Notes under the pieces: model-generated | What the model was told of the DNA's origin: nothing | Databases searched by the model: none | The model's input: only the letters and a program-made list of their open reading frames with translations | Made by a program: the position numbers and the translations under genes | Part shown: positions 57,191 through 61,568 of the stretch, one piece after another | How the letters are laid out: each line of letters starts with the position of its first letter | Position numbering within the stretch: position 1 is the first letter of the stretch | Assembly: GCF_947496855.1 (NCBI RefSeq) | Contig: NZ_CANMED010000008.1 | Coordinates: forward strand, 326,509 to 390,508 | Length of the DNA stretch: 64,000 nt | Direction: 5' to 3' | Source: an uncultured Aquimarina sp. | GTDB taxonomy: Bacteria; Bacteroidota; Bacteroidia; Flavobacteriales; Flavobacteriaceae

Positions 57191-57430
57191 TTATTTTGTT
57201 AAGAAACCTTTAGCTCTTGCTTCTTTTAAAACAGCAGCAATACCGTTTTTATTTATATTTTTTAAAGCCGCAGTAGACACCTTAAGTGTTACCCAACGAT
57301 CTTCTTCTGGAATATAAAAACGCTTTTTTATTAAATTCGCGTTGAATTTACGTTTTGTTTTATTCATAGCGTGAGAAACGTTATTTCCCACCATCGCTTT
57401 TTTACCTGTAAGCTCGCAAACTCTTGACAT
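57191..57430 (-). CDS. rpmB: 50S ribosomal protein L28
   Basis: A 79-residue L28: [40 protein letters not shown] and the C-terminal [17 protein letters not shown]. First gene of the block, with a visible promoter at 57467-57497. Confidence 0.96.
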
Positions 57431-57466
57431 CTCTTCTTAATTTTGGTATTATTTCAAAACAGGGTG

Positions 57467-57497
57467 CAAATTAACGAATTATTTATCGAACCACCAA
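57467..57497 (-). promoter_or_regulatory. rpmB operon promoter
   Basis: On the minus strand TTG (57495-57497), 20 bp, then TTAATTTG (57467-57474, one base from TAnnTTTG), then CACCCTG, the initiation-region pattern seen at other strong promoters here. 37 bp upstream of the rpmB start. Confidence 0.65.
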
Positions 57498-57633
57498 TAA
57501 TAGTTTTGTAATTTTTTTCTCTTTTTTAAAATTTTATTTCAAGACGTCGTTATAGAGTAAAATAAAAGGTTTTTGACTTTTAAAGCATACTTATTAATCG
57601 GTTTGATATTCGCGATAAAGATAATGCATTAGT

Positions 57634-57801
57634 TTTCAGAAAACTACCTCATATTTCTGAAAAAACAGGTATTTATACCTATAGAGTAGGTCGCACATAG
57701 CAATTACCTTTACACCAGTTAGTTTTCATAACTGTAACTAACTACTTGATATGGGGTAATTGAGTAGTAAACAAGCGGATCTTAGGATCCGCTTTTTTTA
57801 T
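57634..57801 (+). ncRNA. Structured RNA candidate ending in terminator
   Basis: On the plus strand I see in order: a TTTCAGAAA/TTTCTGAAA stem (57634-57642/57654-57662), palindrome GGTATTTATACC (57668-57679), a stem AATTACC/GGTAATT (57702-57708/57755-57761) enclosing GTTAGTT/AACTAAC (57718-57724/57736-57742), and a terminator AAGCGGATC/GATCCGCTT (57773-57781/57786-57794) with a T7 run. All lie upstream of the four-paralog array. Could be a riboregulator, a leader or an sRNA; no known class is recognised. Confidence 0.45.
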
Positions 57802-57941
57802 GCATTCGAGTTAAGGTAATATCTAAAACCAAAAATTCTTATTATCAAAATTTTATACAACTAAAAAAACTTAAGAGAACTTCTGCCAAATGATTGATTT
57901 TTAGAACCCTAAATTGTATATTAGATAAAAAAACGATTGTT

Positions 57942-58343
57942 ATGTACCAAAATAACACGAATGACTTCATCAGAAAGCATGAACTTGATATAGGATCTTT
58001 CTTTTTCTACAAAAACTTTATGATTTCAGAGATGAATGAAGGAGCCTCATTAAATTATGATAAGGCCACAAAATTGTTTTTATTAACCAAAGAATATTAT
58101 GGAACTAACATACCATTTGTTTATATAACAAATAGAAAAAACTCCTACTCTTTTGAACCCACAACTCATTTTAAATCAGCAAAATTATTCCCTAACTTAA
58201 AAGGGTATGGAGTAGTTACATACAACTCTATAAACAATAAAATAGCTTCATTAGAACAGTCCTTTCTTAATGTTCCTACAAAAATTTTTGAAAATCTAGA
58301 TGATGCAAAACTCTGGGTAAAGGAACTTATCATGCATGATTAA
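57942..58343 (+). CDS. Uncharacterised ~133-aa paralog family, member 1
   Basis: 133 residues from ATG 57942 (the upstream extension to 57894 lacks homology to the other copies). [50 protein letters not shown] and LDDAKLWVKEL are shared with three tandem copies. The alternating strands and final amphipathic helix fit a STAS/SpoIIAA-like alpha-beta fold. That is my inference, and no function is known. No signal peptide, so cytoplasmic. Confidence 0.75.
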   Translation: MYQNNTNDFIRKHELDIGSFFFYKNFMISEMNEGASLNYDKATKLFLLTKEYYGTNIPFVYITNRKNSYSFEPTTHFKSAKLFPNLKGYGVVTYNSINNKIASLEQSFLNVPTKIFENLDDAKLWVKELIMHD

Positions 58344-58469
58344 ACAATATGAATTTAATAATAAATTAACTATAAAAATAAATTATTAATATTTTAAACG
58401 ATACAAATATGTGTTTTTAATAAAAAAATAAGTATATTACCATAGTAATAGGAAACACATCGTTTAAAA

Positions 58470-58854
58470 ATGGTTCATAATTTTAATAATAGGTTTACCT
58501 ATAAGCAGGACCTTAGTATTGGATTATTTTATTTCTATAACAATCATATAATTTCGAAAACAAAAGAAGGCGTCATCCTTACTTTTGAAAATTGCTCTGG
58601 CTTACTGGAATTAATTCATTCCTATTACGGAACTATTATTCCATTTATGTATACATCTAATAGAAAAAAATCCTACTCTTTTGTACCTACTGAGCATTTT
58701 AAATCTTCAAAGTTATTTCCGAATTTTACAGGATACAGTGTAGTAACTTATGATGCCGTCAATAACAAAGTGGCTACCTTAGAACAATATTTTATTGAAA
58801 CTTAAACTAAAAATTTTCAATTGTTTAGATGATGCTTTGCTATGGGTAGAATAA
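58470..58854 (+). pseudogene. Uncharacterised paralog family, member 2 (frameshifted)
   Basis: The frame from ATG 58470 gives 111 residues with SIGLFYFYNNHIISKTKEG, PFMYTSNRKKSYSFVPTEHF and FPNFTGYSVVTYD, then stops at 58803-58805 before the final helix. The +1 frame from 58798 continues KLKLKIFNCLDDALLWVE to a stop at 58852-58854, matching the other copies' ending (IFxxLDDAxxWV). So one short frame slip near 58797-58800 removed the last helix. It is either a young pseudogene or a functional truncated copy. Confidence 0.75.
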
Positions 58855-58974
58855 TTATTAAACAACTAAATGATAACTAATTAAAATCATCTTACGGTAA
58901 TAACAAGCTACAAAACACTCCATGAAAACTTATTTATAATTTATTAAACTTAATAAAATTGTACTCAATTAAAA

Positions 58975-59376
58975 ATGGCTTTCACATATAACAAAAAACT
59001 TGCTCATAAACATGAACTTGACATTGGAATATTTTATTTCCATAAAAATTTCGTGATATCAGAAATAAACGAAGGAGTTATTCTTACTTATCAAAATGCT
59101 TCAGAACTCATAAAACTAGGAAAAACACACTACGGTGACAAAACACCATTTGTTTATATCGCCAACAGGATCAACTCCTATTCTTTCGAACCTACAAATC
59201 ATTTTAAAACAAATGAACAATTTCCTAATGTAAAAGGATATGCTGTAGTAACTTATAATCCTATCGGATCGAAAATTGCTAAGCTAGAAAAATCATTCTT
59301 AAAAATTCCAACACGTACTTTCAATAAACTTGATGATGCAATTAAATGGGTAGATAAATTAGTTATCCCAGATTAA
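58975..59376 (+). CDS. Uncharacterised ~133-aa paralog family, member 3
   Basis: 133 residues: HELDIGIFYFHKNFVISEIN, PFVYIANRINSYSFEPTNHF, FPNVKGYAVVTYNPIGSKIA, and LDDAIKWVDKLV. Same layout as member 1 and clearly the result of tandem duplication. 169 bp of spacer separate it from member 2. Cytoplasmic. Function unknown. Confidence 0.75.
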   Translation: MAFTYNKKLAHKHELDIGIFYFHKNFVISEINEGVILTYQNASELIKLGKTHYGDKTPFVYIANRINSYSFEPTNHFKTNEQFPNVKGYAVVTYNPIGSKIAKLEKSFLKIPTRTFNKLDDAIKWVDKLVIPD

Positions 59377-59577
59377 TTAAAAGCTTATTTCAGATTTTCT
59401 TCTAAATAGAAGAGTAGCAATCCATTGTACTAATATTTTCATAATTTTCTAAAAAATAAAACCAACTGTAACGTTTGAGATTAACAAAAATTCACAAAAC
59501 ACTAAATAGCAGACTTTTATAAGAAATTATACCACCTTTTTCACGACTAATCAGTAACTAACAAAATTATTTAGATT

Positions 59578-59988
59578 ATGAAAGCCAAACTAAGTGACAA
59601 CTTTATTCAAAAATACGATCTCAACCTAGGTACTTATTATTTTTATAATCAATACATTATTGCAGAAATAAATGAAGGAGAGATAATTACATTAAACAAA
59701 CTTAACGATCTCATCCCTCTGGTGTTAAAACACTATAGCAATGGACAACCATTTACCTATATCTCTGACAGAATTAATTCTCATTCGATTATACCGACAG
59801 ATTATCTGGATTGTCCTCTAATATATATGGATAATTTTAGAGGATATGGTGTAGTTACTTACAATAAAGTAAGTGAAATGTCAATAGAGGTTGAGAAACA
59901 TTTTGCCAAAAAGCCTTTTTATCATTTTCGAGACTTAAAAGATGCTATTGAATGGACAAAAAAAGAGGCTACTAAACAACCTAATTAG
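59578..59988 (+). CDS. Uncharacterised ~133-aa paralog family, member 4 (most divergent)
   Basis: 136 residues, the most divergent copy: [62 protein letters not shown], and [15 protein letters not shown]. PTxHFK becomes PTDYLD and the KIA segment is lost, so it may have a different partner. Its stop overlaps the stop of the convergent cinA gene by 4 bp. Confidence 0.75.
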
Positions 59989-61226
59989 GTAACCTCGCTA
60001 AAAAGCATTTCAAAGGATTTATTTACCGCCTTCCCTATTGTGCGTTCACGTAAATTACTAAACACAAACTTCTCTGAAAAAACACGATCTGGAGTAGCAA
60101 TCGCTATAAAAACCGTACCCACCTCGACATCACCATCTCCTTTAGAAGGTCCAGCATTGCCGGTGGTCGCAATAGCATAATCTGATTTAAATTTATTTTT
60201 TACGCCTAGCGCCATGGCTTCAGCAACTTCGTTACTAGTAACTGTGTGCTGTTTAATTAAGTCACTATCAACGCCCAAAAGATCTGTCTTAGACTGGGTA
60301 GCATACGTAACTACACCTCCTTTAAAGAAAGATGAAGATCCTGCATTAGCAGTTATAGATTGAGAAATTTTTCCACCCGTACAACTCTCTGCAACTGCTA
60401 GAAACAGGCCTCGTGAAACAAGTATCTTACCAATCATCATCTCTATTGACTCATCCTCTTCATAACCCACAATTATATCACCAATATATTCATGTAAATC
60501 GGTAATCTTATTCTTAATAGTATCTATTAATAATTTCTCATCAATTCCACGTGCAGAAAGACGTAATCTAACCCTGCCTAGACTAGGTAAATATGCTAAC
60601 TTTATAAAAGAAGGTAAATTATCCTCCCATTGTTCTATTTTCTTTGCTATTGCACTTTCGCCTAAACCATAGGTTAATACCGTTTTATGAATAATAAATG
60701 GTCTATCAAATTTTTCCTGAAGTCGAGGCAATACCTCATCATTCATTAGATTTTTCATCTCAAAAGGTACTCCTGGCATAGACACAAAAACAGTATTATC
60801 TTTTTCTAACCACATTCCGGGAGCCGTACCAAAGTTATTCATAAGAACAGTTGATGTACTTGGAACGAGTGCTTGCATTCTATTAATATCCGTAACAGGA
60901 GTATGTATATATTTTTCAAAAAGTGCTTCAATATGACGCAACACTTTATCATTTTGAACCAATGTATCGTCAAAAAATTCGCAAATAGTGTGCTTCGTTA
61001 TGTCATCTTTTGTAGGTCCTAATCCACCAGTTACAAGAACAATATCTACTCTATTCTTTGCTTCTTCCAAAGCGTTTAGAATATGTTGTTTATGATCCTG
61101 AATAGAAGTGATCTGATATACATCCACACCTATCTTATTAAGCTCTTTTCCTATAAAAGCGGAATTAGAATCGACAATTTGACCAATGAGAATTTCATCT
61201 CCTATGGTAATTATTTCTGCAAGCAT
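59985..61226 (-). CDS. cinA: CinA (competence/damage-inducible protein A, NMN deamidase)
   Basis: A 413-residue full-length CinA. Residues 1-170 are the MoaB/MogA-like COG1058 domain ([50 protein letters not shown]), and residues ~255-413 the PncC-type NMN-amidohydrolase domain ([35 protein letters not shown]). Roles include NAD salvage/pyridine-nucleotide repair and competence-associated functions. It is downstream of the HPt gene at 3 bp. Confidence 0.95.
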
Positions 61227-61229
61227 AAT

Positions 61230-61568
61230 TTATTGAAAGTCGGCTTTCAGATCTTCGATAGCACCATTAACAGTAGTAACAATGTGGCTTAGTATAATTT
61301 CAATTTCTGATTTTTCTTTACCAGATTTAGACCAGGCCTCCACTTGCTTTATCTCCTTCAAGAGATCAATACCGAATAACTGAAGATTCGGTTTCATTTT
61401 ATGCGCAAATTGGTATGCAGTTTTTGGATCATTATTTTTTACCGCCTGCCCCATACTATCCAAATCCGGAGGTATCTCTTCTAAAAATGTTTGCACCAAT
61501 ACTGTTATAAATTCATCGTCCCCACCGGACAATTCATTTACACTTTCTAAGCTATACCCTTTGCTCAT
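61230..61568 (-). CDS. HPt-domain phosphotransfer protein
   Basis: A 112-residue histidine-phosphotransfer protein. The phospho-accepting His lies in AYQFAHKMKPNLQLFGI, with helices GGDDEFITVLVQTFLEEIPP before and AWSKSGKEKSEIEIILSHIV after, the Hpt four-helix pattern. No response regulator or hybrid kinase lies beside it, so its partner is elsewhere. It precedes cinA, and an FAH remnant overlaps the region just upstream. Confidence 0.9.
   Translation of the reverse strand: MSKGYSLESVNELSGGDDEFITVLVQTFLEEIPPDLDSMGQAVKNNDPKTAYQFAHKMKPNLQLFGIDLLKEIKQVEAWSKSGKEKSEIEIILSHIVTTVNGAIEDLKADFQ

Follow-up and report, generated by a model that had tools for sequence, protein, structure and literature searches.

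How did four related genes come to stand in series between rpmB and cinA of an Aquimarina genome, and do they belong with the structured RNA element just upstream of them? The question is raised by a stretch of 64,000 nucleotides (the window) from an uncultured Aquimarina sp. (RefSeq assembly GCF_947496855.1, 5.83 Mb in 50 contigs; contig NZ_CANMED010000008.1, positions 326,509 to 390,508). A preliminary description of the window had seen a tandem array of paralogs tied to a structured transcript and amplified locally for dosage or diversification. Comparison across the genus Aquimarina led us to another reading, which we consider probable: the rpmB-cinA interval holds two independent things, a set of old paralogs with a predicted SpoIIAA-like fold and a separate Aquimarina small RNA.

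The four open reading frames (ORFs) of about 133 residues were confirmed to start at 57942, 58470, 58975, and 59578. In window coordinates, the array and its borders are as follows:

57191..57430, minus strand: rpmB (ribosomal protein L28; Pfam PF00830), left border of the site, reading away from the RNA
57942..58343, plus strand: copy 1, protein of predicted SpoIIAA-like fold, 133 residues
58470..58805, plus strand: copy 2, 111 residues, truncated by a frame slip
58810..58854, plus strand: out-of-frame remnant of the copy 2 C-terminus
58975..59376, plus strand: copy 3, 133 residues, the copy used for structure prediction
59578..59988, plus strand: copy 4, 136 residues, the most divergent of the four
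59985..61226, minus strand: cinA (Pfam CinA, MoCF_biosynth, CinA_KH), right border of the site

By these coordinates, the spacers between successive copies measure 126, 169, and 201 bp. Relative to copy 1, the other three copies show identities of 53, 57, and 34%, and a single BLASTP comparison of copies 1 and 4 gave an E of 4e-29; from their sequences, the mutual homology of the four is beyond doubt. The ORF listing gives copy 1 a longer frame that begins with a TTG at 57894, with the ATG at 57942 internal to it.

Four copies in a row, copy numbers of 0 to 5 across the genus, and a second four-copy array in the same genome are what recent local amplification of one gene, selected for dosage or diversity, would produce. 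We read the rpmB-cinA interval in 41 genus genomes, 30 of which carried one to five copies (71 in total): 0 copies in 11, 1 in 10, 2 in 6, 3 in 8, 4 in 5, and 5 in 1, with the rearranged site of one genome (G013) entered as 0. The 41 included 20 genomes from a second batch of 30 (18 with strong array matches and 2 that had the RNA but lacked the array). The other 10 of that batch and one genome of the first (G020) were left unread, and because none of these had a strong array match, the array is less frequent than 30 of 41 would suggest.

Sequence divergence argues against amplification being recent. The 70 within-genome pairs at the site were 32-62% identical, whereas orthologs were 77-95% identical across the four genomes compared; at 34-57% identity to copy 1, the window copies themselves are also too far apart. 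We calculated the ratio of nonsynonymous to synonymous substitution rates (dN/dS) for the 24 pairs within four orthologous sets from these genomes (G000, G017, G341, and G006). It was 0.024-0.121, far below 1, in the 21 pairs not involving this genome's copy 2, so by sequence comparison the intact orthologs are under purifying selection. In a tree of 104 proteins, the copy-4 clade (17 rows, support 100/100) consisted of the last copy before cinA in 16 of 17 cases, the exception being a middle copy in G012. A copy-2 clade (11 rows, 100/100) contained one row that is third of five in its own genome, and copies 1 and 3 formed clades of 9 rows (86/86) and 4 rows (100/99), respectively. The remaining copies, many of which come from genomes holding one or two, fell into further clades. 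Judged from these alignments, clades thus largely track position rather than genome. The array is a product of birth-and-death of old paralogs, not of recent amplification, dosage growth, or diversifying selection; the amplification proposed in the preliminary description is largely refuted, and we assign it very little probability.

Copy 2 illustrates the death side of this process. Its stop codon at 58803-58805 is followed, in the next frame, by what is left of the C-terminal motif of the family, KIFNCLDDALLWVE and a stop, at 58810-58854; because of this arrangement, copy 2 is a truncated and probably dying gene. The Phe, Ala, and Trp of the family's C-terminal pattern (see below) are absent from its in-frame part and present in the remnant. 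The preliminary description was right about the slip and had counted only the last helix as lost; according to the copy 3 model, the missing part comprises the last strand (113-116) as well as the last helix (119-129). A relative retains an intact ortholog, 77% identical over 111 residues, and the copy-2 clade contains more. The three ortholog pairs involving this genome's copy 2 had dN/dS of 0.154-0.237, compared with 0.024-0.121 in the other 21, which shows that this copy is under relaxed constraint. One other short copy was seen among the 71, the second copy of G014, which also has an internal TGA.

The second part of the question concerns the hairpins upstream of copy 1, whose features are:

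57660..57682, plus strand: conserved block AAAAAACAGGTATTTATACCTAT upstream of the promoter, a possible activator site
57705..57712, plus strand: -7 promoter box TAnnTTTR, here TACCTTTA
57717..57799, plus strand: predicted small RNA of about 83 nucleotides (from a covariance model, pair counts, and folding z), with a first hairpin at 57718-57742, a GGGG-loop hairpin at 57743-57766, and a terminator stem at 57773-57794 with a U-run

The RNA lies directly upstream of the array on the same strand and in this genome ends 142 bases before copy 1, as would be expected if array and hairpins formed one regulated operon, with the hairpins as its 5' leader or attenuator. However, the tie between array and transcript did not survive comparison across genomes. 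Both were present in 19 of the 41 genomes, the RNA alone in 6, the array without detected RNA in 11, and neither in 5. The RNA is therefore not the leader of the array, since each occurs without the other. A strong terminator also stands between them, and copy 1 has a conserved motif of its own, CTAAATTGTATMTTAGA. We regard the leader as very improbable. Across species, conservation of the hairpin region greatly exceeds that of the flanking sequence, whether or not the array is present. On a tree of four proteins (15 of 40 inner branches unresolved), the array changed state 5 times and the RNA 6 times, and both appear to be ancient within the bulk of the genus. In three genomes that have the RNA and lack the array (loci L090, L091, and L092), about 1 kb separates the RNA from cinA; in L090 this gap holds an uncharacterized minus-strand ORF of 287 residues (L090:6489-7352).

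Independence of the array from the RNA raises the matter of how the copies are expressed. The motif CTAAATTGTATMTTAGA was found upstream of copy 1 in 9 aligned orthologs, with one base differing in one of them, and TATMTT followed by GTAAT was found upstream of copy 2 (11 sequences). For copy 3, no comparably clear upstream motif was seen among positional orthologs. Since positional orthologs keep position-specific upstream motifs, the sequences suggest that the copies are separately transcribed from their own promoters. Sigma-70 consensus promoters were not in excess near the array (18 found, 16.6 expected in shuffles). An ad hoc Bacteroidetes-type pattern matched upstream of 0 of 71 copies in its strict form and 15 of 71 in its loose form, relative to a mean of 1.8 and a maximum of 6 in 200 single-base shuffles, an enrichment that is weak because the rows are related.

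We next turn to the RNA itself. The preliminary description had placed a chain of hairpins ending in a terminator at 57634-57801. The hairpins and terminator stand, while the part upstream of about 57717 looks like promoter DNA. A box of the form T-A-n-n-T-T-T-A/G was present at all 25 RNA loci, and the full TAnnTTTG at 2 of 25; in the available text of PMC9723704, the Flavobacterium sigma-A box is given as TAnnTTTG at -12 to -5. Applying the register of that text predicts transcription to start at A57717, one base before hairpin 1. The distance from the upstream block to the box was equal at all 25 loci (24 by regular expression and the 25th by eye), and mean column identity in the ungapped alignment was 0.85 in the block, 0.59 in the intervening stretch, and 0.89 in the TAnnTTTR box. 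The pattern CRGGKRTTTWTACSTAT, allowing at most 1 mismatch, occurs a single time in this genome. A short open stretch at 57605-57700, ending in TGIYTYRVGRT and a stop, overlaps the promoter block and by eye is not conserved as protein in the relatives compared.

The 85 bases at 57717-57801 fold with an energy 4.4 standard deviations below that of shuffled sequences (z -4.4). The loop of the RNA is UAUGGGGUAAUU, in which GGGG is replaced by GAGG in one genome. Pairs were counted on 25 sense rows (20 distinct), leaving out an antisense match (L114, on the minus strand in a palindromic stretch); once this row was removed, apparent two-sided changes in hairpins 1 and 2 vanished. In the terminator stem, 7 of 9 pairs showed two-sided changes. 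Paired cells amounted to 97.5%, versus 94.5% in shuffles, and 0 of 500 shuffles scored as high, a figure that is favored because the alignment was fitted to the structure. The structure is thus well supported for the terminator alone, and hairpins 1 and 2 are compatible with it.

These counts bear on whether the conserved stretch is an RNA at all, or instead the terminator and regulatory DNA of the divergent rpmB operon. The stretch adjoins rpmB in 25 of 25 cases, two of the three hairpins lack two-sided covariation, and the full TAnnTTTG box is rare (2 of 25), all of which such DNA would accommodate. Against this, the -7-type box and the block at fixed distance read away from rpmB, into a structure that ends in a plus-strand U-run, and the excess of paired cells over shuffles points, within the limit just given, to a folded transcript. 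We judge regulatory DNA of rpmB unlikely, while giving it more weight than any other alternative considered here.

A covariance model built from nine sequences was used to trace the RNA, with a strong match defined as an E of 1.2e-5 or better. Strong matches occurred in 25 of 52 genus genomes, one per genome and each adjoining rpmB; rpmB itself was found in 31 of 31 genomes searched, at 73-100% identity. Six weak matches (E 8.6e-4 to 0.092; G345, G016 twice, G015, G338, and G008) were not counted. Five of the six were checked and had no rpmB nearby. Two genomes beyond the 25 had weak matches only, away from rpmB. Among 299 genomes of the bacterial family, searched with RNA model R1 at 0.01 under strict filters that may miss weak relatives, this genome alone matched (one of the others is also a known member of the genus). 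In both this search and the protein search of these genomes below, the candidates scored in each genome were limited in number. When named genomes were scanned for exact copies of the RNA core, 17 stretches were returned: 15 from Aquimarina, 1 from Flavobacteriaceae bacterium RhTr2, and 1 from a Bacteroidia metagenome-assembled genome.

Rfam had 0 matches in the window, with none reaching a gathering threshold. Relaxing the limit to E 5 over 57430-60000 gave 7 matches, all far below gathering scores: enterobacterial small RNAs (through the terminator palindrome), snoRNAs, the L20 leader (E 5), and PK-repZ, none of which we accept. At six relatives' loci and E 0.05, the single match was an L10 leader, below threshold and located elsewhere in one of the loci. 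The closest described counterparts in kind are Rfp18 and other Flavobacterium small RNAs, which in the available text of PMC9723704 are likewise short, independent, structured, conserved within a genus, and from the same family; the likeness to Rfp18 is one of description.

What are the proteins? The guess of a STAS/SpoIIAA-like fold in the preliminary description was borne out by the predicted structure. We ran AlphaFold2 for copy 3 with 32 sequences from the window and named-genome loci, and the best of five models had a predicted local distance difference test score (pLDDT) of 76 and a predicted template modeling score (pTM) of 0.75. Foldseek matched this model best to PDB chain 2q3l_A (E 4.4e-4, TM 0.59/0.62), a Shewanella protein of the SpoIIAA-like type. 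Chains of 2q3l, SpoIIAA, and SiaC made up the six best PDB matches, among them 1th8_B from a Bacillus SpoIIAA complex (E 3.5e-3). The copies are accordingly predicted by the model to have a SpoIIAA-like (STAS/CRAL-TRIO) fold, the fold that the available text of PMC2954212 assigns to 2q3l and 2ook as shared with STAS and CRAL-TRIO domains. SiaC of Pseudomonas aeruginosa (6kko, 7e6g) belongs to the same fold class (6kko_C, E 8.7e-3, TM 0.50) but its sequence identity is 6%.

At the sequence level, membership in the matching Pfam families is borderline. In PF11964 (SpoIIAA-like), the family of 2q3l and 2ook, copy 3 scored 25.4 against a cut-off of 25, whereas copies 1 and 4 scored 17 and 14.6, below the cut-off, and copy 2 had no match. 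At E 0.01, PF11964 matched 10 of 32 family members and 4 of 10 wider members, the latter 4 all below the cut-off. Six of seven matches examined were confined to roughly the C-terminal half of the profile; the exception was L071:7965-8348 (profile 25-104). PF25056 (DUF7793) was matched nearly full-length by copy 3 (residues 21-128; 26.3 bits against a cut-off of 26), but the other three copies had no match at E 1 and few members (3 of 32) matched at 0.01. No paper naming DUF7793 was found among the open-licence papers searched.

Conserved residues offer a further link. In a wider alignment of 29 rows (A8), from which the truncated copy 2 was left out, R65, E105, F116, A122, and W125 were invariant. 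F116, A122, and W125 are spaced, in 29 of 29 rows, as are Phe114, Ala120, and Trp123, which according to the available text of PMC2954212 pack the last helix on the sheet in the 2q3l/2ook family. The same text describes a conserved Tyr34/Asp73 pair in a hydrophobic cavity, and proposes that these proteins carry nonpolar compounds or act as enzymes activated at interfaces.

With SpoIIAA chains among the best structural matches, the copies might be anti-anti-sigma factors of the SpoIIAA/RsbV type, operating a phosphorylation switch. In the model, S68, S70, and T74 are placed within or next to the loop that leads into the second helix, a region that would correspond to the one carrying the phosphoserine of SpoIIAA. 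S68 is near-invariant, though not invariant, in the wider alignment A8, and S70 and T74 are mostly kept, by eye. The usual partners of such a switch were not found in the genome. The SpoIIE phosphatase domain (PF07228) had 0 matches at E 0.001, while the control was positive in 5 of 14 known genomes. PF13581 had 5 matches, 2 of them over the cut-off, all in frames of 280-718 residues that, from frame length only, look like sensor kinases rather than a short anti-sigma kinase, and no kinase or sigma gene was recognized by eye directly beside the copies. The copies do not resemble the anti-anti-sigma factors of a partner switch built on SpoIIE, and we consider such a role improbable.

Orphan immunity genes against polymorphic toxins typically come as arrays encoding small, diverged cytoplasmic proteins, and Imm19 matched copy 3 weakly (E 0.0077, below the cut-off). 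However, an array that keeps its position and is under strong purifying selection from species to species is at odds with such a role. No toxin gene was recognized by eye beside the copies, and copy 3 had no match among phage and plasmid records at 1e-5 or in PADLOC at 0.1. NCBIfam and PHROGs scans were also without a match at the limits used. Of all the explanations we weighed, orphan immunity is the least probable.

Several results weigh against old paralogs of SpoIIAA-like fold beside a separate small RNA. The protein tree is partly unresolved, with 28 of 101 inner branches open and many deeper forks undecided because of the few alignment columns. A strong RNA match is absent from 27 of 52 genus genomes, which makes the RNA dispensable over evolution. 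Hairpins 1 and 2 show one-sided changes only (e.g., U-A to U-G). On the protein side, pLDDT ranged from 64.6 to 76.0 across the five AlphaFold2 models, a single Foldseek match reached an E of 0.001 or less, and the six best TM-scores were 0.50-0.63. Sequence-profile searches of the PDB with two alignments (A5 and A8) returned best matches at chance level and no solved relative, and Pfam cut-offs were cleared by copy 3 alone, by less than 0.5 bit.

The protein family extends well beyond the site. A profile of the four copies gave 12 matches in this genome at E 1: 4 here, 4 in the second array, 2 spaced 4 kb apart, 1 single, and 1 fragment with stops (E 0.018). A match at 1e-8 was present in 202 of 299 genomes sampled from the bacterial family, and no match at 0.001 was found in 15 genomes sampled from other families of the order. 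The highest number of matches in one genome was 12. The second array comprises four paralogs (L071:7455-9299) between a Clp ATPase ORF (851 residues) and an RNase Y ORF (521 residues). Groups of two to four related to this second array were observed in four other genus genomes (L086-L089). At L072:6040-10619, two family members 4 kb apart flank three uncharacterized genes of 388, 368, and 246 residues.

In other genera, seven loci lay near nadD-gmk-yicC-type genes and two between menD- and menB-type genes (L108:7331-7816 and L109:7449-9284). Neighbors were named by eye, with Pfam support for the L101 and L108 examples, and this sample of nine loci is biased because they were chosen as best matches. 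The family seems to occupy a different site in each lineage, and no pathway common to the nine loci emerged as a functional hint.

Under the reading of two independent systems, the paralogs would be cytoplasmic single-domain proteins, each made from its own promoter. They may act as soluble binders, either carrying or sensing a small nonpolar ligand at the membrane or binding other proteins to modulate them; we put this forward as the likeliest mechanism, at well under an even chance. A ligand-binding or protein-modulating function is suggested because it fits the fold and the absence of operon partners, and the paralogs would differ in ligand or expression condition. The nonpolar ligand is included because one was proposed for the 2q3l/2ook proteins in the available text of PMC2954212.

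The RNA would have its own promoter, the upstream block as a dedicated activator site, and its own terminator. A small RNA that stands on its own is ordinarily expected to act in trans through a loop. If transcribed, this one may act in trans by base pairing, with the conserved GGGG loop as the likeliest seed. In full, the proposal is that an undescribed trans-acting Aquimarina small RNA, switched on by a dedicated activator through the block at fixed distance from the -7 box and pairing its GGGG loop with C-rich targets, shares a site with old STAS/SEC14-fold binders of separate roles; we give this combination somewhat less than an even chance.

The RNA is the more novel part of the locus and lends itself to direct testing, being a clean candidate that about half of the genus carries as a single strong match and whose start, end, and regulator site are predicted. 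The protein family is widespread without a described role having been found. Because members of the array have been separately maintained over long times, single knock-outs should differ in effect. The preliminary description had allowed that the copies might fall into a known, well-described family with the same array in all relatives. The fold class is indeed known, but the array differs among relatives and no described function was found for the protein family beyond the names DUF7793 and SpoIIAA-like. No paper on the array or the RNA was found in the literature searched, which comprised open-licence papers only.

Two observations concern the right-hand end of the site. The 3' ends of copy 4 and cinA overlap tail-to-tail by 4 bases (59985-59988), and in L071, L073, L101, and L108 the family gene nearest the border is likewise near or overlapping a convergent neighbor. 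Adjoining cinA is an ORF of 112 residues at 61230-61568, which has no Pfam match at 1e-5 and by eye resembles an Hpt (histidine phosphotransfer) protein.

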